Assembly: GCF_000015765.1 (NCBI RefSeq)
Contig: NC_008942.1
Coordinates: 945,921-1,009,920 of the forward strand
Direction: 5' to 3'
Length of the DNA stretch: 64,000 nt
From: Methanocorpusculum labreanum Z
Lineage (GTDB): Archaea > Halobacteriota > Methanomicrobia > Methanomicrobiales > Methanocorpusculaceae
Shown here: positions 9,595 to 36,691 of the stretch, in pieces
Layout of the letters: every line of letters begins with the position of its first letter
Position numbering within the stretch: position 1 is the first letter of the stretch
Notes under the pieces: model-generated
The model's database searches: none
The model's input: the letters and a program-made list of their open reading frames with translations, nothing else
Told to the model about the DNA's origin: nothing
Translations under genes and position numbers: made by a program

Positions 9595-11082
9595 TTATGA
9601 CTTCCGAGTAACCCATTCAAACACATTGTTAATTTCTGCAATACTCCCACTTCGAGGGTCATAAGTCCAACTCTGATCAAAAACACCGTCCTCTACTCTC
9701 TGAGTGCCAAAACTGCCGATACACAACGCAAAAAATCTATTCTCTTCCTGCTTTTGTTTTTTGCATAGCGGAACAATATCAGAAGACAAACCATAGATTA
9801 CGAAATCAGAAATTACCAATAAATCTGCTTTTTTATAATCAGATTCCGACATCATTCGTATTCCCTCGTATAATGCCGGCGCAACATCGGTGCCTCCATG
9901 AAAACTCATTTTAAGGAAGTTAATTAAATCATGAATCCCTTTTGGAGGGGTAAAATCAAGGGTGTTTATTGATGTACTGAAATTAATTAAATAACAATTT
10001 CTCTTTTGAGAAATTGCACGTGATGCTAAACTAAGTGTTAATGCTTTAGCTATATTTTCGGGGGCACCGGACATTGACCCACTCGTATCCACACAGATGA
10101 TTATCGGCCCCATTTTTTCCTCATCATCAACGTTCACAGTTTCCTGCATGTTCTCTTCAATGATTTCTGTTATATAGCCTTGTTTAGAAAAACACATCAA
10201 TCTATTTTCAACATATTTCAGATCAAAGAGTAATGTAACCTCAGGGTCGCTTAATAGAGCCAGTTCCTGCGGAATGATATTTTCCAGATCCCTACCAAAC
10301 TTTATACCAATAATTTCTTCATTGGAATGGACATCCGGTTTTTTAACATGATATTGAATTGTTGAATTAATAATCTCTGTATGATGAGACTGTTGTTCTT
10401 TATGTAATCTCCCCATTAATTCACAGAGTTCACGGATTTTTTCATCATATTTTAGGTAATCTGCCCATTTTTTAAGGACTGAGATGTCTTGTGCACTTAA
10501 TTTACCTACGCTTAAATCCCAAAAAACTCCGGTATCAACTCCCAACGCTTCAAAGACCTCTTTCATCTGCTGTATTGTTTCAAACCATTCTTTTAAATTT
10601 TGCAGCAATTGTTTACGGCGATTTTGTATTTCTTCAAGCTGCCATTCAAGTAACTGTTTTTCATACTCTTTTCTCCATGCTTCCTGCTCATTCCGACGAA
10701 TAAGACTTAGGTTTTCTATAATGGACTCATCTTTCCTTTCTCCAGTTTGATTGTCAACTTCACCTATTTTTTCTTCCCAAAATTTAACATTTACAGACGG
10801 TTGAAGCACTTTATATTCATCTAAATCACTTATGATAGATTTTTTAGAACCTCCGTGTGCTCTATAATCCCACTCTGCAGAAACCAAGTTTAATCTATGT
10901 GTTTCAAGAGGATTGGTGTTCTCTAAATAACTAACCGTTGATTTTTCCCAGTCAGTAAGTTTTTTATTTAATTCATTTTCAAAATCCTTATCATTTAAAC
11001 CAGAAAAATAATCAAAATAAAGGTTAATTGCTAACTCCTTCGTTCTTGGTATTTCATTATTTGGAGACGGCATGTGATTCAA
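9595..11082 (-). CDS. viaA: ViaA-like von Willebrand factor A (VWA) domain protein
   Basis: A 495-residue protein, near the usual ViaA length. The C-terminal VWA domain carries the metal site DTSGSMSG at about residue 331 and a matching GGTD further on. The middle is charged and probably coiled coil (about 130-180). ViaA works with the MoxR-type ATPase RavA, encoded just upstream. The ATG at 11082 overlaps ravA by 26 nt; an internal ATG at 11073 is possible. The gene is visibly AT-rich compared with the flanking metabolic genes, suggesting transfer. Confidence 0.85.
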   Translation of the reverse strand: MNHMPSPNNEIPRTKELAINLYFDYFSGLNDKDFENELNKKLTDWEKSTVSYLENTNPLETHRLNLVSAEWDYRAHGGSKKSIISDLDEYKVLQPSVNVKFWEEKIGEVDNQTGERKDESIIENLSLIRRNEQEAWRKEYEKQLLEWQLEEIQNRRKQLLQNLKEWFETIQQMKEVFEALGVDTGVFWDLSVGKLSAQDISVLKKWADYLKYDEKIRELCELMGRLHKEQQSHHTEIINSTIQYHVKKPDVHSNEEIIGIKFGRDLENIIPQELALLSDPEVTLLFDLKYVENRLMCFSKQGYITEIIEENMQETVNVDDEEKMGPIIICVDTSGSMSGAPENIAKALTLSLASRAISQKRNCYLINFSTSINTLDFTPPKGIHDLINFLKMSFHGGTDVAPALYEGIRMMSESDYKKADLLVISDFVIYGLSSDIVPLCKKQKQEENRFFALCIGSFGTQRVEDGVFDQSWTYDPRSGSIAEINNVFEWVTRKS

Positions 11083-12688
11083 CCTTTTTCAACAAATGCT
11101 CGGCATTCAGTTTATGGTTTTCCAGATCTTTGATGAAAGAATTGAATACATCAAGCACTAAATCTCTCTTTTCTGCAGGCACGAAAGGTGTTTCATTCAA
11201 CTTTTTCTGGGTCCTCACATAAGATCTTGTGTCGGTGATGATCTTCTCGAGAGATTCTAAAGACTTGTGGCATTCATTGATAAAAGTAGCTTTCACCCGG
11301 GAATCTACATGCTTTTGCACTCCTTTTTTTATCTGTATAGGAGGAGTTACGTCAAACCACTTAACAAAGAAATTATTTGCATAACCAGAATCCCATCCAT
11401 AGTTTAATACCTCATTATATATTTGTACTTCGCACGACTTTTTTCCATTAAAATTGCATGTGACCTGATTTACGGACTTTCCTTCTTCATCAAGAGGAGA
11501 AAACGATTTCGTTGTATCCATATATTCAACCGGAATATAGAATCGGATTTTTATCGTATTCTTATCCTCATTATAATAATTGTAACTACGATTTTTACGT
11601 ATATTCGGTGTAGTTACCGGGAAACACGGCTTGTCTCCAATTTTTTCAGTCTCATATACATCTTCCGTGTAAAAGAATGTATCAGATACACCATTCTCAA
11701 GGTCCTTGTGATTGAGTAACCATTTCTGTAATTCCGCATTGTTAGCACAGCCAAACTCTTTCACGCACTTTATAATTATTTCATCAATAGATATCCTGTT
11801 CTCTTCGAGTGTCCATAAACAATGTCGTAATATCAGGGCGTCAACGGGTATTACTTCAGTGCGATCACACAAATATGCAGCTGTTTTCAATATAATCGCA
11901 ATTTTCTGCCATCTGCGATCGGAAACATAAACTGCAATTTCCGGATTATCTTTATTAAACTCATCAATCAAAACTCGAATTGAATGTATTATGTTGAAAA
12001 CCTCTTTGGAAATAGTTACTTTTGAGATTTCCCTGGAAAGCTGCTCCCACTCATCATAAGAAAACTGCAATTCAGCTGGAACCTCAATGTCAGCTGAAAC
12101 AACACCTCCATCAAGCAGTTTTTCAAAATTTTCTCGCTTTTCCAGAGGATTTACGATTATACGCATTATAAACCGATCATAGAGAGCGTCTAATCCTTGA
12201 TTCGGTGGCGGAGTCTCATTACTTGCGGCGATCAATGCTTTAAGCGGGACCTTTTCATCTTTACCACCGTTGCGATAAATTCGTTCATTTATGATCGTCA
12301 ACAGGGTGTTTAGAATAGCGGGACTGCTTTTCCATATTTCATCAAGAAATGCAAAGTCTGCAGTAGGTAAGTATCCCTCTGTTTTGCGAATATAATTGTC
12401 ATTTTTCAGTTCTTGAATACTCACAGGTCCAAAAACGTCTTCAGGCGTGCTAAATCTTTGCATCAAATATTCAAAATGAGTTGTATCTTTAAACGCCTTT
12501 GATAAACGACGGGCAATGAGACTTTTTGCCGTTCCTGGTAACCCGTATAAAAATATTGACTGCCCAGAAATTGCTGAGAGAAGAGAAACTGCAACGATCT
12601 CTTCTCGTTCATACAATCCATCAGAACAGATCGTAATTAAATCCGTAACTCTTTCTTTCATAAAATTATGTGCTTGTGGATGAGTCAT
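11057..12688 (-). CDS. ravA: RavA-like MoxR AAA+ ATPase
   Basis: A 543-residue MoxR-family AAA+ protein. Walker A is GLPGTAKS (49-56) and Walker B is FAFLDE (112-117), followed by IWKSSPAILNTLLTIINER, a phrase typical of RavA. It should form a hexamer that acts with ViaA as a chaperone-like or regulatory machine. The C-terminal half (about 310-480) is the part most divergent in this family. The gene is AT-rich. The motif AAGGTTGTAATGTAAC abuts its start codon and resembles one upstream of the giant gene at 24994. Confidence 0.87.
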   Translation of the reverse strand: MTHPQAHNFMKERVTDLITICSDGLYEREEIVAVSLLSAISGQSIFLYGLPGTAKSLIARRLSKAFKDTTHFEYLMQRFSTPEDVFGPVSIQELKNDNYIRKTEGYLPTADFAFLDEIWKSSPAILNTLLTIINERIYRNGGKDEKVPLKALIAASNETPPPNQGLDALYDRFIMRIIVNPLEKRENFEKLLDGGVVSADIEVPAELQFSYDEWEQLSREISKVTISKEVFNIIHSIRVLIDEFNKDNPEIAVYVSDRRWQKIAIILKTAAYLCDRTEVIPVDALILRHCLWTLEENRISIDEIIIKCVKEFGCANNAELQKWLLNHKDLENGVSDTFFYTEDVYETEKIGDKPCFPVTTPNIRKNRSYNYYNEDKNTIKIRFYIPVEYMDTTKSFSPLDEEGKSVNQVTCNFNGKKSCEVQIYNEVLNYGWDSGYANNFFVKWFDVTPPIQIKKGVQKHVDSRVKATFINECHKSLESLEKIITDTRSYVRTQKKLNETPFVPAEKRDLVLDVFNSFIKDLENHKLNAEHLLKKVESHAVSK

Positions 12689-20239: not shown

Positions 20240-20534
<295 letters not shown>

Positions 20535-20758: not shown

Positions 20759-20989
20759 AACCGCGAATCTCCGCGAATTCTCGCGAATCGCATTTTTCTT
20801 GCGTCGTCGTGCTCTGCTCCGGCTTATCGCCTACGCAGAAATCGCACGCCGTCTGGAAAAAATGCTGAGGAAAAACCGGCGTGCCGGTTTTTCTTTTTCA
20901 TGATCATTCCAGAGTGTGCTAATATAATTGATATTTCGGGGTGCGGGGCCGCGACTCCGGCGCGGAGCGGCCCGCGGTGGAAATATCCT
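20759..20989 (+). repeat. Left inverted-repeat arm of giant-gene island 1 (C and A elements)
   Basis: Positions 20759-20897 match the reverse complement of 25471-25611 nearly base for base. The arm starts with CCGCGAATCTCCGCGAAT and ends in a 22-bp palindrome AAAAACCGGC-GT-GCCGGTTTTT (20871-20892) that could end transcription both ways. A family A copy (20931-20989) follows toward the gene. The remaining 20990-21157 includes a short family B copy (21065-21110). Confidence 0.85.
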
Positions 20990-21157: not shown

Positions 21158-24100
21158 TTAACCGCGGTATAACTCCTTTTCTTCATCTTCACGTTCAGCA
21201 GCTCGTATGTTATCTCTCAAAGATTCAATATTTATTTCAGCCCATCTTTTGACACGTGGATTAAGGTGAGTGAGGAGCGCTTCGAAATTATTTAACCAAG
21301 TTTCATAAAATGGTCTTTTAGAACCAATCCACGAAAAAATAGAAATTTTGTTAGTTAACCCTGCCAACACTTTTTCATTGTCACCATAATGATTAATTAA
21401 ATACTTGGCCAATGGACTCCAAGTGATTTTCTGATCAATATTAATAAGTGGTAATATTGCATTTGCAAGGAAGATGGGAGCACGATCTGGTTCGTCTTCA
21501 CACCACTGAGTTATTAGTGGTAATTGGATAGATTCTAATGGACTGGGCGCCCATTTTCCAGCTGATGCTTCCGATCCAAGAATAAGCTCAAGAGAATCAG
21601 ATCCGCGATATTCCCTGGAGGTTATAGCAGCTCCAAATATTGGCCAAGTTGTTTCAATATATTCTGGTAAGAGAAGTAATTTAATAATTTCTTCAAGATC
21701 TTCATAAATTAATACGATAACCGTGTTGCCAGAACATAATGCGATTATTTCTTCGGTTAAGTTCTTTGCTATGTCTAAATCGGGTCCGGATTGTTGTAAC
21801 AAACCTGAAATAATGTTAGTAACTGAATAAAGGGTACCTTGAAGCGAGTTAGTATCTTTTATCATCGTGGAAAAACATTTGTAATCAATGAATAGTTTTT
21901 TGAAAAATGGTCTAAACATATGCGTCTTTATTTCATCATCATAAGCATAGTCAAATGCTAATTCAAATACCATGATACACCCATTCTCAGAATTTAACAA
22001 CAAATCATTAAAGAAATCAAGTACTGAAGCAGGATATAAGTGCCTAAGAGCGTTTCTATACTGAAATTCCCTAAAATCCTCAATATGTAATTTATCATTC
22101 TTTAATTGAGTGATCAATAAATCCAAATCAGTCTTTTCAGGTTTAGTTCGTGCAGTCAAAACTAATAATAAATGGGATAATTGTGGATCTTCGGATATCC
22201 TTTTAAGATACTGACTTACAAGAGCCGAGTTTTCCGATCGGAGTGCATAGAGATAGCCCCCTAAAACAGAATCATCCATTTCCTCTTTAGGTACGCCTTT
22301 TAATAAATCAATTAACGTGTTGATGATCTTATCTTTGTCATCAGTGCAATTACAAAGGGCATAACCAAACTGATATCCTTGACTTGACGGGGTTCTAGAT
22401 AATAATTCTAAGACTTCACGCAAGTCTTCTGGTTTACTGCTTAGATATTTTGCAAATTCAATAGTCTCAGTATTTACTTTTTCATAATGATTCGAACCAT
22501 CATACGGCGTATATTGTTTCGGGCTTATTATTTTGAGATATGCTTCATCAATAATCGATTGAGGTCCCAATTTATTGATCCAATTATTTAGTCGGATCTT
22601 TGCATCTTCTGGAATATCCTCTGAATGGTAATGGAGAAACCTGTTTAATTCTGCTGATACTTCCGGCCAGAAATATCCCCTCTCTTTACAAATAGAGAAT
22701 ATAACATCATCTAAAATATCAAGTCGTCTATACTCTAGCATACCCCAGATGGATTTTTCTATTTGAGATATAGCAAGCTTTCCAATTGGATCCTCATTTA
22801 AGGCATATTTTTTCAATATCCGTAGAACATCATCCCAATAATCAAAAACTTCTTTCCTTGTTTTTGGAATCCAGTCTTTTTTGGGATATCGACTGCCTTG
22901 AAGCTCTACACCACCGATCCTTAAGAAACTATGGGTTTGGAGGGCATGACCCAGAGCTGTGATACAGATCGTCTGGAACTCAGGATCATTTGTTGATAAT
23001 CCCTCATCAATTACCTTTAATCTCATGTTCGGCGGTGCTTGCGTACCAGACAATGCCAAATGAAACAACTGATAAAACTGCTCTGTAGAGTTATTTCCCA
23101 ATCCTGGTTCAGTTTCTGAAACTGCGAACTTAAGTAATAAATTTGCGGCTTTCGTAAAGGTGTTTTCCCAGAAACACAAATTTTCGAGAGCCCAAACAAT
23201 GTTTCTTCTACCTGGGATAATTTGTTTAATCAATTCTTTATCTGCGTCACCAAAACATCGGTAAAGGGCATCGGTAGCCTCGCGGGGATTCACTTCTGCA
23301 ATTGAGCGGAAGATCCGTGAACCCCTCTCAGAATTTAGTGTCTCTGCTTTCCCTAAACGGCGTCGATTATTGCATAGTTCTTTAGTTAATTCTTCAATTT
23401 CTGGATCAATGTTTATGTATCTAAATTGATTACAGAGAGAATTGACCAAACCCTCTGGAATATCATTTCCGAATAAGAGTTTTTCAGCCTGATCTGGAGA
23501 ACAATATTTCCACCACCCTGTTGCAAGAGTGATTGCAAGGGGCATGGGAGTTACTCTAAAATACCGTCCTCTTTCTTCGATAATACCACGTTCAGATTTT
23601 ATCTGTTTGATGATACGGTGGAAATCATCAGAGGATATATTGCAAATATTTTTAGCAATAAAATCTGCATGGATATACAGATTATCCTTCACACCAAATT
23701 CCGTGAAAAGAGAACACGCTTTAATTACGTCTTTCTGAATATCGGTTGGTTTTTCTCGACCGCCAATTAATCGATCTATGAGATATTCTTTAGTAATTGT
23801 TCCAATCGATTCAGCGCCGGCTGTTCTATTCTTAGCAATCAAAACAGCCATTTCAGGATATCCCTGAGTAAAATCTACTATTCGTTTAACATCTGGCTCA
23901 GGCAATCCAGAAAATTGTTCCAATACAATTTTTTCGATTATGTCATTACTAACCGGTTGGAGTTTGTAAACGGGATCTTCTCTTATACCACACGTATCTG
24001 TGTAATCAATTGATAATAAGGATAAACAGCTATCTGAATGTTTTATCTCTATTGCAAGGCGATCATGGGTTTCACAATCGCATTCATCAACAATTATTGT

Positions 24101-24994
24101 TCCAGACAACTTACTCTTACGCCAATTTCTTATCGCTGAAATAAGGTTTTCAACATCCCGAGCGTTGTCAAAATAAACGACGTCGGCACTTAGCTGACTC
24201 TGTACAATATCACCAGGTGATATCTCATCACTAAGAAGTTCAGGGGGTCTAAAGGCCTCTAATGCTACTCGGGTTTTCCCTAATCCAGAATTTCCGACAA
24301 AACGCACAACCTTCTGCTTACCAGAGATATTCGTTCGTATTCCTGTAATTATATCTTGAAGATATTTGTCTGAAAAAAACCTATTACAATAATATTTTTC
24401 CCATTCTCCCCACGTGAGAGCACCGCAGGGGACTGGACGACCAATACATTCACACACATAAAGAGCCGCTGCTGGAAATTGGTTTGTCCAATCTGCAATT
24501 TTTTCCCCATCATAAATCTGAATAGCACAACTTTCAGCATAAGGCGCGTGTGCAGCCCTCAAACCCTTTCGAAACCCCTCTATTCTATCTTCTTGCATAC
24601 TCCGATTACATGGAAAATTACAGAACAAGATATATGTACCCTGGTCTAAAAAGTGAGAATTAATGCGTTCTTTAACGGTTTTATTATCGGTGTTCAATAA
24701 TTCTTTTTTGCATGCAGCTGCGGTAAAACCATTTGCATCAGTTCTTTGTTTACATTGGAATAATATTGATTTATTTGGAAAATAATCTGTTTTTTTTATT
24801 GATGAGTGATCCCATTTTATATACCCATCCTCCCCACCATCTTTTTGGTTTGAAGCTAGAGAAACCCTAAATGATTGTATCTGTAAATTCCATCTTTTAA
24901 CTTCAAGAGAGAGGAGTTTCTTTAATAATTGTGTTAATTGCTCATCATCCAGTCTTAGAATATCTTTATGGCCAATCTCAAATAAGTGTGTCAT
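21158..24994 (-). CDS. Giant PD-(D/E)xK nuclease / P-loop NTPase / helical-repeat protein (STAND-like)
   Basis: A 1278-residue protein. Residues 1-125 look like a PD-(D/E)xK nuclease: D56 in KDGGEDGY and Q80-C81-K82 in LFQCKQR. A linker DWTNQFPAAALYV (168-180) follows. The NTPase core has Walker A GNSGLGKT (234-241) and Walker B TIIVDECD (299-306). From about 480 to the end it is alpha-helical repeat, with IAEVNPREA near 563 and VWALENLCFWEN near 598. This order resembles STAND-type defence NTPases. The gene is AT-rich and flanked by long inverted repeats. A GGAG site precedes the ATG. The antiviral role is inferred. Confidence 0.8.
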   Translation of the reverse strand: MTHLFEIGHKDILRLDDEQLTQLLKKLLSLEVKRWNLQIQSFRVSLASNQKDGGEDGYIKWDHSSIKKTDYFPNKSILFQCKQRTDANGFTAAACKKELLNTDNKTVKERINSHFLDQGTYILFCNFPCNRSMQEDRIEGFRKGLRAAHAPYAESCAIQIYDGEKIADWTNQFPAAALYVCECIGRPVPCGALTWGEWEKYYCNRFFSDKYLQDIITGIRTNISGKQKVVRFVGNSGLGKTRVALEAFRPPELLSDEISPGDIVQSQLSADVVYFDNARDVENLISAIRNWRKSKLSGTIIVDECDCETHDRLAIEIKHSDSCLSLLSIDYTDTCGIREDPVYKLQPVSNDIIEKIVLEQFSGLPEPDVKRIVDFTQGYPEMAVLIAKNRTAGAESIGTITKEYLIDRLIGGREKPTDIQKDVIKACSLFTEFGVKDNLYIHADFIAKNICNISSDDFHRIIKQIKSERGIIEERGRYFRVTPMPLAITLATGWWKYCSPDQAEKLLFGNDIPEGLVNSLCNQFRYINIDPEIEELTKELCNNRRRLGKAETLNSERGSRIFRSIAEVNPREATDALYRCFGDADKELIKQIIPGRRNIVWALENLCFWENTFTKAANLLLKFAVSETEPGLGNNSTEQFYQLFHLALSGTQAPPNMRLKVIDEGLSTNDPEFQTICITALGHALQTHSFLRIGGVELQGSRYPKKDWIPKTRKEVFDYWDDVLRILKKYALNEDPIGKLAISQIEKSIWGMLEYRRLDILDDVIFSICKERGYFWPEVSAELNRFLHYHSEDIPEDAKIRLNNWINKLGPQSIIDEAYLKIISPKQYTPYDGSNHYEKVNTETIEFAKYLSSKPEDLREVLELLSRTPSSQGYQFGYALCNCTDDKDKIINTLIDLLKGVPKEEMDDSVLGGYLYALRSENSALVSQYLKRISEDPQLSHLLLVLTARTKPEKTDLDLLITQLKNDKLHIEDFREFQYRNALRHLYPASVLDFFNDLLLNSENGCIMVFELAFDYAYDDEIKTHMFRPFFKKLFIDYKCFSTMIKDTNSLQGTLYSVTNIISGLLQQSGPDLDIAKNLTEEIIALCSGNTVIVLIYEDLEEIIKLLLLPEYIETTWPIFGAAITSREYRGSDSLELILGSEASAGKWAPSPLESIQLPLITQWCEDEPDRAPIFLANAILPLINIDQKITWSPLAKYLINHYGDNEKVLAGLTNKISIFSWIGSKRPFYETWLNNFEALLTHLNPRVKRWAEINIESLRDNIRAAEREDEEKELYRG

Positions 24995-25340: not shown

Positions 25341-25611
25341 AGATATTTCCACCGCGGGCCGCTCCGCGCCGAATCGCAAATCAAAGATTTGCTCAGCTGA
25401 GGTCGGCCGCTTTCAGCGTCCACCCCGCAGTCACTTCCCCGCACCACAAAATCAGAAAAGAATAACAAACAAAAAGAAAAACCGGCACGCCGGTTTTTCC
25501 CCAGCATTTTTCCAGACGGCGTGCGATTCCTGCGCAGGCGATAAGCCGGAGCAGAGCACGACGACGCAAGAAAAATGCGATTCGCGTTAATTCGCGGAGA
25601 TTCGCGGTTAA
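25341..25611 (-). repeat. Right inverted-repeat arm of giant-gene island 1 (A and C elements)
   Basis: Mirror image of the left arm: a family A copy (25341-25450), the palindrome AAAAACCGGC-AC-GCCGGTTTTT (25477-25498), then the C element with its TTCGCGG head at 25601-25607. This A copy is longer than the left one by about 50 bp and matches the copy at 9251-9360. The gene-free stretch here is 24995-25926; 25043-25340 holds nothing else I recognise. Confidence 0.85.
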
Positions 25612-25926: not shown

Positions 25927-28722
25927 TTACAGCATCCTCTGTAAAAACTGCCCCGTATAACTCCGCTTCACCTTCGCTACCTCCTCCGGCGTTCCTTCGG
26001 CAATGATCTCGCCGCCGGCATTCCCGCCCTCAGGGCCGAGATCGATCAGATAATCCGCCGACTTGATAACATCCAGATTATGCTCGATCACCACAACCGA
26101 ATTCCCTTTCCCGACCAGACTGTCCAGAACCCCGATAAGCTTCTTCACGTCATGGAAATGGAGACCAGTCGTCGGCTCATCTAAGAGATACACGGTCTTC
26201 CCCGTCGCCCGCTTCGCAAGCTCCCTCGTCAGTTTGATACGCTGGGCCTCGCCGCCGGACAGCGTCGTCGAACTCTGCCCGAGCTTGATATACCCGAGAC
26301 CCACATCGGCAAGCGTCTGGAGCTTTGCACTGATCGACGGCACGTTCTCGAACAGTTCGAGGGCCTCGTCCACGCTCATATTCAAAACATCCGCGATCGA
26401 CTTCCCCTTATACTTCACCTCGAGCGTCTCCTCATTATACCGGGTCCCCTTACACTCCTCGCACTCGATATACACATCAGGCAGGAAATTCATCTCGATC
26501 TTCATCACGCCGTCCCCCGAACACGCCTCGCAGCGGCCGCCTTTGATATTGAACGAAAACCGCCCCGGGCCGTATCCCCGCAGCTTCGCCTCCTTCGTCT
26601 CGGCAAACAATTTCCGGATATCGTCGAACACCTTCGTGTAGGTCGCCGGATTCGACCGCGGCGTCCGCCCGATAGGCGACTGATCGATCACGATCACCTT
26701 GTCGATCTCCGACTCGAAGATCAGCTCCTTATATGCCCCCGGCGTCACCTTCGACTTATACAACTCCTTCATCAGGGCCTGATACAGCGTATCGTAGATC
26801 AGCGTGGATTTTCCCGAACCCGAAACGCCAGTTACGACCGTCAGCGTCCCAAGCGGGATCGCCGCATCGATATTTTTCAGATTGTTCTCCGTGCAACCGT
26901 TGAGCCGGATGAACCGCTTCGCCGGCCGTCTCTTCTCGGGGACGGGAATAGAAAGCTCGCCCGAAAGATACTTTCCCGTCAAAGACTCCGGGAACGTTTC
27001 GATCATATCCGGCGTTCCTTCGGCAACGACTTTCCCGCCGTGAACGCCTGCCCCGGGACCGATATCCACTACGTAGTCGGCCGCCCGGATCGTGTCCTCG
27101 TCGTGTTCGACCACGATGAGCGTGTTTCCAAGATCCCGAAGCTTCTGCAGGGTCTGGATAAGTTTCTGGTTGTCCCGCTGGTGGAGACCGATCGACGGCT
27201 CATCCAGAATATACAAAACCCCCATCAGGTTCGAACCGATCTGGGTGGCGAGCCGGATACGCTGGGCCTCCCCGCCGGAAAGACTCCCCGCACTCCGGGA
27301 AAGCGTCAGATATCCAAGACCGACCGACTTCAGGAAGTTCAGTCTGGACTTGATCTCCCGAAGGATCAGCCTCGCGATCTCCTCTTCCTTTTCAGAAAGC
27401 GGCAGAGACTCGAAGAACTCGAGGGCCGCATCGATCGACATATCGGCGACGTCCGCGATGGATTGACCGCCCACTTTGACCGCGAGCACGTGATCCTTCA
27501 GCCGTTTTCCGTGACAGGTCGGACAGGGAAGGATCCGCATGAACTTCTCAAGCTCTTCTTTGCGGTACTCAGACTTCGTCTCCTTATACAGGCGTTCGGT
27601 CTGGGGAAGCAGCCCCTCCCAGGTCCCGTGATAGGCCCACTCGGCATTTTTCGAGGTGTGGCGGAACTTCATGTCCTGGTTCACGCCGTACATCAGCCCG
27701 TCATACTGCTCTTTGGTGAACTCGCTCACCGGCGTCATCAGCGTGAAGCCGAGATGTTTCGCGACGGCGTCCAGATACTGGACACGGAACCCGTCGAGGA
27801 AATTTTTGTACACGGCGACGGCGCCGTCGGCAAGAGAGAGGCTCTTGTCCGGGATGATCAGGTCGGGATCGAAGACCATCTGGAACCCAAGACCGTTACA
27901 GGTCGGACAGGCCCCGAACGGACTGTTGAAGGAGAACATTCTCGGCTGGAGCTCCTCGAACGAGAGACCGCAGACGGGACATGCCATCCGTGCCGAGTAG
28001 ACGGAGTCCGTCTCGCCGGCGTTCGCATACACGAGCCCGTCTTCGGCGTGCTTCAGTGCCGATTCGATCGCCTCGGTCAGCCGGCTCCGGTCGGACGTTT
28101 CCACCCGGTCGATGACGACATCGATGTTGTGCATGATGTATCTGCCGAGCTTGATCTCGTCGTCGGTCCGGAAAATCTCGCCGTCGACCCGAACCCTTGC
28201 AAAGCCGTCGGCATGCAGATCGCGGAACAACTGTTCATACGTCCCTTTCTTCTTGCGGATGATCGGGGCGAGGATCGTGACCATCGTCTCCGGATACTCC
28301 TTCTGGATCGAATCGGCGATCTGACCAGGCGTCCTCGACTCGATTTTTACGTGATGGATCGGACAGTAGGGAATCCCGATCCTGGCATACAATAACCGCA
28401 GGTAGTCATAGATCTCCGTCACCGTACCTACGGTAGAGCGCGGATTTTTCGAAGTGGTTTTCTGTTCGATGGATATTGCGGGGGAGAGGCCTTCGATGGA
28501 ATCAACATCGGGTTTGCTCATCAGTCCGAGGAACTGGCGGGCGTAGGCGGAGAGAGATTCGACGTATCTGCGGTGCCCTTCCGCATAAATCGTATCAAAA
28601 GCGAGTGTGGATTTTCCCGAGCCCGAAACCCCGGTGACGACGATCAGTTTGTCACGCGGGAGTTCTATATTGATATTCTGAAGGTTGTGCTGTCTGGCAC
28701 CCTTCACGATCAGGTTTTTCAT
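25927..28722 (-). CDS. uvrA: Excinuclease ABC subunit A
   Basis: A 931-residue UvrA of normal length, the damage-recognition ATPase of nucleotide excision repair. The N-terminus shows the first P-loop ([21 protein letters not shown]) and a second P-loop follows near residue 630. Two ABC signatures (SGGEAQRI) and the CPVCG and CEACSGDG zinc sites are visible. UvrA is widespread in bacteria and present in mesophilic methanogens. It lies 29 nt after the DUF116 gene and may be the last gene of that operon. Confidence 0.95.
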
Positions 28723-32735: not shown

Positions 32736-32930
32736 ACAAACTGGATGTTTTTTGTTATATTTCGGGAGTGCGGGGCCGGGGTGGAGAATCTTTTTTTGAT
32801 GAAGAGATGCAACCATTTTCATCTTATTTTGAGGAGGGGGAGCGATATGATCTCTCATATGGTAATAGATTTAAATAAGCGCCCATCTTAGAATGCATAT
32901 TATGACATACGTTCTGGATAGGAGATGGAG

Positions 32931-33275
32931 ATGACCTATTATCGTATAATTACCGAAGAAAAACTGCAGAGTTGGGTTGATCAGAATTCACGAAGAGCCC
33001 AGGAGATTATTGTTGAACTGGTAGATCGTTTGGTTCGTGCATCCGTATCTTATCCAATTGAATGTCGATTTTCAAAAGTAATTATGGAACATGGATTTGA
33101 TGGAGAACTCAACGTCAAAGAGTCGCCTATTCACTATATTCCAGAAGGATATTCCTGTTGGGAAATTGGAACGAACAAGGATTCTATTTCTAAATTCAAG
33201 AGTGATCTGCAGTCATCTGAAAAAAATTTCAGAATGATCAGTACAATAAATCAAATTCGACATTTGTATTTGTAA
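32931..33275 (+). CDS. N-terminal nuclease part of a frame-disrupted giant gene
   Basis: This frame codes the first ~100 residues of a protein whose remainder continues in another frame. The motifs GFDGEL (D59 G60 counting from ATG 32925) and WEIGTNKD (E80, K85) suit a PD-(D/E)xK restriction-type nuclease. Real homology ends at the A7 run (33220-33226); the last 15 residues are out-of-frame. ATG 32931 is preferred because GGAG lies 6 nt upstream; ATG 32925 abuts it. A TTTAAATA box is near 32872. One extra A, or a -1 slip, restores the frame into the following ORF. Confidence 0.7.
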   Translation: MTYYRIITEEKLQSWVDQNSRRAQEIIVELVDRLVRASVSYPIECRFSKVIMEHGFDGELNVKESPIHYIPEGYSCWEIGTNKDSISKFKSDLQSSEKNFRMISTINQIRHLYL

Positions 33276-33289
33276 CGCCACGTCTTGCA

Positions 33290-36200
33290 ATGGGTAAAGA
33301 TTTAGATAAAACTGGTCGTGGCAAGTGGATTCAGGATGAGATCAAAAAGGGGGAGTGGAGGGATATCAAAATTATTGATGCTGACTCCTTATGTGATTGG
33401 CTTTCACTCTACCCAACAGTTGGGATTTGGATGGCTGATCAAATGGGGATGCCAGTTGAGGATATTCGCCCATTAGAGAAATATTGGGATGCTATTCTAG
33501 AGGCTACAAAAATACATCCATTATCCCCAGAGATATTTCTTGCACATCGTGCGGAAGCAAAAGAGCGTGTCAATCAATTCCTTGATAATCATCAAAACCG
33601 TCTCAAACTGACTACATATTGTCCAGCTCAAATTCCGGATTTCATTGCGGCTGTCTTACAAAGCAGAGATGACAGGAATACTTGGTATTCTAAAACATTG
33701 GTCATTGATACACAATCAGCTTTTCAAAAAATGGTTAGTGAATCTGGATCGCATGTATTCGTAATCACATTCGAAGTTATTGACGAAGAAAAATTAATTA
33801 GTGAAGCAAATTCAAGAGAACACTCAGTAATTTACTCTGGTAAACCAAGTCAGAATTCAATCACAAACTCTTACACAAGCACTCTTCCAGATATTCCACC
33901 AGAATATATCTCCACAGAATTAGATAAACTTGGATATGGGAAGTTAGAGGCATTCTATTTTGCATACAAATGTTTCGGAAATCCAAGCAATCTTAGAACT
34001 CTCATTTCTGGTTATCCAATTAGTCCAACATGGAATTTGGGAAATATCGATGTGAATACAATATTATCTGCATGTCTCTTTGGGAAGTGGGACGGAAGTT
34101 ATGAAGGAGACCGAAAAATTATTTCGGATTTTGTAAAAAAACCATACGAGGACTGGATACGAGAAATAACCAATGCTCTCCTGCAGTCTCCTCAGATTCC
34201 GATTTATGAAGAAAATAATGTCTGGAAGGTAACACGAAAACTGGAAATCTGGGATTTAATCTGGGAACGAGTTAGAGCTGAACAGATTCAGCAGTTCTGC
34301 AAACAGGCAGTTCAGGTATTACAAGAGATTGATCCGAAATATGAGCTTGAACCGAATGAAAGATACATGGCCAGCATTCTAACGAAAAGTCCCACATATT
34401 CTTCTACATTGCGTGAGGGGGTGGCAGATACCTTAGCATTTCTGGCAAGTCCTCTCTGTCAAAAAAACAGCGGACTGGATGTTGATGTTCAATCAATAAT
34501 TCAAATGTCGGTTCGTGAAATTCTTTCCTCACCCAATTGGAAACTTTACGCCACACTTGACCACTCAATATCACTCTTGGCAGAAGCATCCCCAAGAGAA
34601 TTTCTCAACAGACTCCGGAAAAATCTGAAAACGCCTTTTATTAAGGATTTGATTCGGGAAGCACCGAATCAATTTGGTCCAATATCATATTTACCAGGTC
34701 TTATCTGGGGTCTGGAAAAACTTGCATGGAGTACAGATAATCTTACTCAGGTGATAGCCATTTTGGGTGATATAATTGAAATGGAGGGGGAACCATATCA
34801 TGAAAAACAAGCATTTCGTGTTCTCAATACAATATTGTGGCTACCAAGACCGCATACATCTGCCGATTCAAAAAAATGTAAAGCCGCGATATATAGTCTT
34901 CTAAAAAATCATCCAGCTATAGGCAGTGTCCTTATCCGTGAGGAGACATCTCTCCAGAATAAGTATTGCGATGGTGGCACTAAACCCAAATGGAGGGGTG
35001 ATTTCTTTGGAGAATGTTCAAACGTTGTGTCATTATATCCAATATATTGCGATATAACACATTATTTGATAGGTAATGATACTGATTTCACATCAAATCT
35101 TCTAAGTGAATATGTACAGAAGAACGGTTGCGTGCGCAAATATATTGTGGAGTTTTTGGAAAATAATGACTTCAACTCCACGCAGCAACTTGAGAAACAT
35201 CAAATTTGGTTGGAGATTAATAAGGCTCTCATGTGGATTTCACGTTTTCCAGATAATAAAATATATTCTCAAGAAGAGGTGGAGAGGTTATCTGCCATCA
35301 GCCTGAAATTAATGCCGGATGAACCCAAATATAAACACAGGTCTTTGTTTAATCCAATAAATAATTCTGCTCTTTATCATCCCGGCATATTAGATTCTGA
35401 CGCATCACTGACTCCTCAAATAGATGCATTGAAGGAAATATACTCTATTGGCGGGATCTCCGACATACTGGAGTTTGCAGAATCAACATCTGTACCTGAA
35501 TCTGTCGGTTATTTATTTGGCAAGAGTGCGGAAACTGAAGATGATACAATCCTCCTTCCAAAATATTTGACCACAACTGATGAATGGAAAAATAAATTTA
35601 TCATTGGATATTGCAGGGGAAGGTTCGATAAATCAGCATGGCAGTTTGTTGATAGTTTACTTATCACATCGTGGACTCCAAATGAAATGAGCGTTTTCTT
35701 CCTCTCTCTTCCGCGTATGAATAAGACATGGGCATATGTCTCGACTTTAATGGGAGATGAAGAAAAAATCTATTGGGAACACATGTGGCCATATCTTCCT
35801 AAAGAAGAAAATAATTGGGCATATGTATTAGATAAATTTCTTCAGTTCAACTTACCGCTGCAGGCGATTAAATGTATTTCCTCTCTGCTATTTGATAAAC
35901 AAAAAGTAGAGGGCGAATACATAATCGGTGCTCTTAAATTGCTTCGTGCAGATAAGAACATGCATCCATATATTGAACCATATGCCATTACGCAAATTCT
36001 GAAATATCTCGCTGAGTCAAAAGATATTAACAAGGAAGAAATATGGATATTAGAAGTTGCCTATTTCTCTGGAATGGATGTTCATGGAAGCCTTCACACA
36101 ACGATTTTTGAGAGAAGACTTGCCGAAAGTCCTGAATTTTTCTGTGAGATGCTGCAACTCATTTACAAATCTAAAAATGAACAAGCCACTGATATGAAGT

Positions 36201-36691
36201 ATGATATCAGCATAGATGTACGAAATAATATTTATTACATGCTTCAGCATTGGAGAGTTATCCCAGGGACAAGAGATGACGGTACATTTGATGAAAGCGC
36301 CTTCCTTGATTGGTATCATTCAGTAATTGATATCTGTCAGAAACAGGGTCTTGAAGATGTAGCATTCGTTGAAATTGGCCGAATACTGACATATGCTCCA
36401 GAAGATCCAGATGGCCTCTGGATTCACAGAACGGTTGCGAATCTGCTCAATGAAGATGATAATGAATCATTAAGACGGCATTTCGGGATTGGTATTAGAA
36501 ATAAGGATGGGGTTCATATCTGCGATGGAGAATGGGAAGAACAACGAACCAAAAATTCTAGGGAGAAAGCAGATGCTTTGGATAATGCTGGATATCCTCT
36601 ATTCGCAGAACTCATGCGAGAGATTTCGGAGTCATATATTCAAGATAAGAAGAGATCAGAAATGGAGATCAGGAGTTTTGAATCATTTTAA
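33290..36691 (+). CDS. Main part of the second giant nuclease/helical-repeat protein (downstream of frame break)
   Basis: An open frame of 1133 codons from its first ATG; homologous sequence starts earlier (FQNDQYNKSNSTFVFVTPR from 33227), giving about 1253 codons with the upstream part. After GKDLDKTGRGKW comes IKIIDADSLCDWLSLYP, matching the linker of the protein at 21158-24994. Where that protein has Walker A, this one has TTYCPAQIPDFIAAVL, so the P-loop is lost. LAEASPREFLNRL (fused residue ~550) and IWGLEKLAWSTDNL (~590) match IAEVNPREA and VWALENLCFWEN at the same distances in the first giant. The rest is helical repeat. AT-rich and flanked by inverted repeats. Defence role inferred. 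Confidence 0.72.
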   Translation: MGKDLDKTGRGKWIQDEIKKGEWRDIKIIDADSLCDWLSLYPTVGIWMADQMGMPVEDIRPLEKYWDAILEATKIHPLSPEIFLAHRAEAKERVNQFLDNHQNRLKLTTYCPAQIPDFIAAVLQSRDDRNTWYSKTLVIDTQSAFQKMVSESGSHVFVITFEVIDEEKLISEANSREHSVIYSGKPSQNSITNSYTSTLPDIPPEYISTELDKLGYGKLEAFYFAYKCFGNPSNLRTLISGYPISPTWNLGNIDVNTILSACLFGKWDGSYEGDRKIISDFVKKPYEDWIREITNALLQSPQIPIYEENNVWKVTRKLEIWDLIWERVRAEQIQQFCKQAVQVLQEIDPKYELEPNERYMASILTKSPTYSSTLREGVADTLAFLASPLCQKNSGLDVDVQSIIQMSVREILSSPNWKLYATLDHSISLLAEASPREFLNRLRKNLKTPFIKDLIREAPNQFGPISYLPGLIWGLEKLAWSTDNLTQVIAILGDIIEMEGEPYHEKQAFRVLNTILWLPRPHTSADSKKCKAAIYSLLKNHPAIGSVLIREETSLQNKYCDGGTKPKWRGDFFGECSNVVSLYPIYCDITHYLIGNDTDFTSNLLSEYVQKNGCVRKYIVEFLENNDFNSTQQLEKHQIWLEINKALMWISRFPDNKIYSQEEVERLSAISLKLMPDEPKYKHRSLFNPINNSALYHPGILDSDASLTPQIDALKEIYSIGGISDILEFAESTSVPESVGYLFGKSAETEDDTILLPKYLTTTDEWKNKFIIGYCRGRFDKSAWQFVDSLLITSWTPNEMSVFFLSLPRMNKTWAYVSTLMGDEEKIYWEHMWPYLPKEENNWAYVLDKFLQFNLPLQAIKCISSLLFDKQKVEGEYIIGALKLLRADKNMHPYIEPYAITQILKYLAESKDINKEEIWILEVAYFSGMDVHGSLHTTIFERRLAESPEFFCEMLQLIYKSKNEQATDMKYDISIDVRNNIYYMLQHWRVIPGTRDDGTFDESAFLDWYHSVIDICQKQGLEDVAFVEIGRILTYAPEDPDGLWIHRTVANLLNEDDNESLRRHFGIGIRNKDGVHICDGEWEEQRTKNSREKADALDNAGYPLFAELMREISESYIQDKKRSEMEIRSFESF

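Follow-up and report, generated by a model that had tools for sequence, protein, structure and literature searches.

The archaeon Methanocorpusculum labreanum Z encodes, in a single gene, a 1278-residue protein with a predicted Mrr-like nuclease domain, a STAND NTPase core and a long helical solenoid. We consider it probably to be an antiviral sensor of the STAND type, complete in one protein and belonging to the PD-Lambda-4_A family; a viral ligand would set an NTPase switch, drive oligomerization and so bring about DNA cutting. The gene lies in a 64,000-nucleotide stretch (the window) of the genome, which is a single 1.80-Mb contig with two MCR alpha genes and therefore that of a methanogen; all coordinates are positions in the window (Table 1). 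The gene is one uninterrupted minus-strand ORF of 1278 codons, from an ATG at 24994 to a stop at 21158, with GGAG directly 5′ of the ATG. An earlier note, which gave no strand, had claimed a giant protein at this place, and the ORF proved real and unbroken.

Table 1. Coordinates of the STAND gene, its predicted domains and the repeat arms around it.
Feature	Positions	Strand	Basis
Single-gene STAND-type protein, PD-Lambda-4_A family, 1278 aa	21158..24994	-	Intact ORF; PADLOC PDLC03991
Predicted Mrr-like PD-(D/E)xK nuclease domain, residues 1-192 (D52, D56, Q80, K82, E98)	24419..24994	-	Model, conservation, hhalign
Predicted STAND NTPase and winged-helix region, residues ~228-498 (Walker A 234-241, Walker B 300-304, GxP 378-380)	23501..24313	-	Foldseek, conservation
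Predicted alpha-solenoid (HEAT-like) tail, presumed sensor, residues 500-1278	21161..23497	-	AlphaFold2, Foldseek
MITE-like repeat, left arm	20759..20909	+	Inverted copy of 25471-25609, ~96% identical
MITE-like repeat, right arm, inverted	25471..25609	-	~96% identical to 20759-20909

Domain architecture

Residues 1–640 were modelled by AlphaFold2 with 44 homologues (pLDDT 89.2, pTM 0.86). The N-terminal domain has helices at residues 17–34 and 109–116 and strands at 39–44, 57–61, 76–82 and 120–125, giving an αβββαβ order, with D56 beside strand 2 and Q80 and K82 on strand 3, as in a PD-(D/E)xK core. D52, D56, Q80 and K82 are present in all 57 nuclease-type homologues aligned, and these four together with G54 are invariant in a 34-sequence alignment of the domain whose diverse members include E. 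coli. By hhalign, residues 14–89 matched a set of 24 archaeal Mrr_cat domains (E 2.4e-4) in register, DGGEDG pairing with the D-GG-D of Mrr and FQCK with VQAK; the score of 29.9 was reached by none of 150 column-shuffled profiles, the best of which scored 22.3. The earlier note had let its reading stand or fall by an N-terminal PD-(D/E)xK fold, and both the strand order and this alignment agree with one. Reversed, alpha/beta-hydrolase and Cap4 profiles gave no match by hhalign; kinship to the Cap4 nuclease, represented by three sequences only, scored no higher than background and was rejected. As a single sequence, the domain scored 12.7 bits (E 0.14) with Pfam Mrr_cat, under the gathering cut-off of 21, which points to remote homology, and a PDB sequence search with the domain alone returned only coiled-coil noise. 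On profile, topology and motif, residues 1–192 are a predicted Mrr-like PD-(D/E)xK domain. It shares the DGGxD and QxK motifs of Mrr-type restriction endonucleases (Pfam Mrr_cat) but differs from them in being fused, as an effector, to a STAND core.

A Foldseek search of the PDB with the model of residues 1–640 returned STAND proteins as top matches (E 1.8e-7 to 1e-4), led by the prokaryotic STAND-TPR protein 6mfv, Apaf-1 and, third, Avs3 bound to terminase (8dgc), with the apoptosome, the NRC3 and NRC4 resistosomes, CED-4 and NLRP9 further down. TM-scores over whole chains were low, as the targets are multidomain, flexible and in different states. Searched against PDB sequences, the family profile placed two plant NLRs at the top, NRC1 (E 0.006) and NRC3 (E 0.03), both as weak matches. 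Among 72 full-length homologues, G239, K240, C305 and G378 never vary, and D303 is retained in 92%; a Walker A motif followed by arginine (GKTR, R242), D303-x-C305 and G378-x-P380, which we take to be the GxP motif of STAND proteins, are likewise conserved. The earlier note had listed D56, Q80-x-K82, GNSGLGKT at 234–241 and IIVDE at 300–304; every residue number is exact, and conservation of the catalytic and nucleotide-binding residues across homologues argues that these motifs are not due to chance. Pfam AAA_16, nSTAND3 and NB-ARC match relatives of the protein weakly. Taken together, the Walker A and B motifs, the winged helix, the GxP motif and the STAND-like fold identify the core as a predicted STAND NTPase. 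An NB-ARC/STAND NTPase with a winged helix is shared with eukaryotic NLRs, Apaf-1 and CED-4, a remote homology at the level of the fold; in the M. labreanum protein, however, the effector is a nuclease and the solenoid is neither LRR nor WD40.

Residues 500–1278 are modelled as helix nearly throughout (mean pLDDT 89.2), in keeping with the helical tail of about 800 residues that had been described from the letters alone. Their best Foldseek matches are the HEAT-repeat proteins CAND1, SF3B1 and importin beta, at low TM-score, and from residue ~500 to the C-terminus we predict a HEAT-like solenoid.

Family membership and effector exchange

Searches of Pfam and NCBIfam with the 1278-residue protein gave no match, and a PDB sequence search with the whole protein gave nothing useful. 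In PADLOC, by contrast with the profiles of Avs types 1–5, none of which matched at E up to 1, only the PD-Lambda-4_A models did: PDLC03991 aligned at E 1.7e-78 from residue 4 to 1274 of 1278 over profile positions 3–1279 of 1283. The earlier note could not place the protein in a named Avs class and thought that it might be a new type; the latter idea gives way to this full-length match, which puts the protein in a named family. PD-Lambda-4 is an experimentally discovered phage-defence system, obtained from E. coli strains by selecting for defence against phage lambda (Vassallo et al. 2022; PMC9519451). Both that paper and PMC10952713 go no further than to call it a ‘P-loop NTPase’ system whose mechanism is unknown. 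A test for bNACHT proteins with Pfam NACHT (PF05729) yielded one match in the genome, which lies elsewhere and scores below the cut-off.

STAND proteins share a tripartite plan of effector, NTPase and sensor, and among them Avs1–4 carry nuclease effectors and recognise terminase or portal (PMC12931631). The M. labreanum protein resembles Avs1–Avs4 (AVAST) in its N-terminal nuclease, central STAND NTPase and C-terminal repeat tail, an Avs-like order that the earlier note had proposed and that the Foldseek ranking upholds. Were it a true AVAST protein, of a known or a new type, it would sense terminase or portal through TPR repeats. The domain order, the nuclease effector (PMC12931631) and the third rank of Avs3 favour this, but the protein lacks an Avs profile match and its tail resembles HEAT solenoids rather than TPR; we regard such an assignment as distinctly improbable, reject placement in an Avs class, and conclude that the protein is not an Avs. 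The comparison with Avs, Mrr and Cap4 recommended earlier thus came out in part: the Mrr profile and the Avs3 structure matched, the Cap4 and Avs profiles did not.

At the E. coli EC71 locus, component A, 1283 aa long and scoring 2524 bits with the profile, is followed by component B (248 aa; PDLC03992). Component B has no match anywhere in the M. labreanum genome. In a survey of 89 loci, about 80 of them with an A homologue and each with 1.5 to 8 kb of flanking sequence, in some cases cut short where the contig stops, a recognisable B stood beside A in EC71 only. Across 5426 E. coli genomes, EC71-type A was found in 151 and B in 149; nearly all copies are at least 99% identical, so the pair is close to one lineage. 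E. coli STEC434 carries a second A with a reverse transcriptase gene (L021:12075-13613) next to it in place of B. From these sequence comparisons, component A appears normally to be a stand-alone gene. The M. labreanum protein shares whole-length homology, domain order and nuclease residues with component A, but in PADLOC the experimentally tested E. coli system comprises both A and B, and with B missing the protein falls outside the two-gene system so defined. The E. coli namesake forms a distant branch on the core tree, with 24% identity in the nuclease domain, and A from Enterobacter, which is related to it, shows 19% identity. By its sequence, the M. labreanum protein belongs to the PD-Lambda-4_A family as a divergent member from an archaeon.

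The N-termini of the family vary. Among the 72 full-length homologues, 57 carry the nuclease. Its place is taken in 10 by a PGAP1/DUF676-like alpha/beta hydrolase bearing GHSLGG, in two by a calcineurin-like phosphoesterase (E ~1e-12) and in two by a TIR-like domain of the CAP12/Pycsar family, the last matched weakly in one member (E 7e-4) and assigned in the other, which had no match, by clustering with the first; one N-terminus is cut. These counts understate the non-nuclease members, since DGGED was one of the two seeds of the scan. In every one of these homologues the alternative effector and the core lie in a single open frame. On a tree of the core only (residues 228–1255), the effector labels require at least four changes, and hydrolase labels fall among nuclease labels on highly supported branches. 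One NTPase–solenoid core is thus predicted to bear at least four N-terminal effector types, the modularity typical of STAND proteins and a further likeness to eukaryotic NLRs, in which interchangeable N-terminal effectors likewise sit on one sensor core.

The same observation bears on a different account of the protein, that of a type IV restriction-like enzyme in which the Mrr-like nuclease acts on modified DNA, powered or controlled by the NTPase, and no immune-receptor step of ligand sensing takes place. Mrr-family enzymes restrict modified DNA, and the nuclease profile is Mrr_cat-like. Moreover, the E. coli screen reported direct immunity, and not abortive infection, for seven of the 11 systems that include putative DNA-binding or DNase components (PMC9519451). 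Against this, the fold is that of STAND switches and not of McrB or helicase motors, and a DNA-restriction motor is hard to reconcile with a core that in relatives bears hydrolase, TIR-like or phosphoesterase domains. We think this account unlikely.

The present work identifies PD-Lambda-4_A as a family of STAND receptors whose effectors can be exchanged. No earlier description of effector swapping was found in the literature searched, most subscription papers lying outside its reach; the usual occurrence of A without B and the presence of at least four effectors on one core both look new.

Genomic setting and distribution

The gene has a GC content of ~36%, against ~54%, its surroundings lying at ~52–58%, and its next neighbours are housekeeping genes, with no defence island or defence gene adjoining. 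A UvrA-like excinuclease gene (25927-28722) adjoins the cassette, and its 3′ end is a flank conserved in 24 of 25 genomes of the genus. Downstream of the STAND gene, the intergenic stretch 20244-20530 holds an inverted repeat of 61 nt (84%) and, close to it, ~20 nt of (CT)n.

The gene sits between two inverted arms of ~140 nt belonging to a MITE-like repeat, which has 54 to 70 matches in the M. labreanum genome, depending on query length, and occurs in tens of copies in four close relatives as well. With tens of genomic copies, the repeats cannot be specific to the STAND gene, and that idea was rejected. About a dozen copies are empty, their two arms ~30–48 nt apart, and at least six hold cargo, the STAND gene included; the other cargoes, at least five, measure 0.5 to 2.3 kb. 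Among the loci compared (L100–L107), they comprise a YdjM-like gene (L100), a DUF4062 gene (L101) and three PDDEXK_3 (GxxExxY) genes (L102–L104) that are 88–89% alike, arms included. The element may either move genes or only mark sites of integration.

The window contains other islands of low GC content. One at 9595-12688 (~35–38%) carries a MoxR-type ATPase gene (Pfam bpMoxR, of MoxR–vWA–beta-propeller ternary systems; E 3e-52) overlapped by a vWA-domain gene at 9595-11082 (VWA_2, E 4e-7), and is a possible NTP-dependent conflict system. A second very large low-GC ORF (33290-36691; 1133 aa) matches only DUF7288 (E 0.012) and is preceded by a 116-aa ORF at 32925-33275.

Within the genus, the PD-Lambda-4_A-type gene occurs in this one of 25 genomes and is absent from the other 24; seven of 393 genomes of the phylum have the family. 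The nearest relatives are found in another genome of the phylum (G407; 36% identical) and in a Methanoregula MAG. With the M. labreanum protein they form one clade (SH-aLRT 97, on long branches that make it less than certain), nested in a group with members from Bacillota, Binatota and Pseudomonadota. Of the relatives that share these flanks, the closest is G016, with 93% identity on the uvrA side; there the flanks lie ~1 kb apart, and the gene is missing between them. Many bacteria and haloarchaea carry homologues on plasmids; a viral contig scan and tblastn of phage records revealed no relative. From the gene-free interval, the plasmid-borne homologues and the patchy occurrence, we conclude that the gene was probably acquired horizontally, and recently.

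Clustering of neighbouring genes found no conserved partner; integrases (5 loci) and DNA methylases (4 loci) were the commonest families. STAND proteins also serve in transcription control and development, and the lack of defence genes among the next neighbours would suit a regulatory or programmed-cell-death switch with a cellular, non-viral purpose. The patchy distribution, the carriage on plasmids, integrases as the commonest neighbour family and the experimental discovery of a relative as a defence system all speak against such a switch, which we hold to be very unlikely.

Proposed action and meaning

By analogy with other STAND proteins, the protein, as an antiviral sensor, would rest with its NTPase kept inactive. 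Binding of a viral component by the HEAT-like C-terminal solenoid would then trigger nucleotide exchange in the NTPase and oligomerization. The oligomer would gather the N-terminal Mrr-like PD-(D/E)xK domains to cut DNA, so that the genome of the virus would be destroyed or the infected cell killed. The targets of this defence would be archaeal viruses or plasmids.

We also incline, on balance, to a broader view, in which PD-Lambda-4_A represents a single branch of a class of prokaryotic STAND immune receptors, each complete in one gene, that has so far gone unrecognised. Its members would combine a HEAT-solenoid sensor with a STAND switch and exchange nucleases, lipases/esterases, TIR-like domains and phosphoesterases across many bacterial phyla and methanogenic archaea, with component B a local accessory only.

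Once seen as a STAND receptor whose effectors can be exchanged, component A acquires a mechanism open to experiment and a link to Avs proteins and NLRs. To our knowledge, few single-protein virus sensors have been characterised in archaea, and the occurrence of this protein in a methanogen would extend STAND-type immunity of this kind to that domain of life. Four effectors on one sensor core would, finally, allow sensing and killing to be studied apart within one family.
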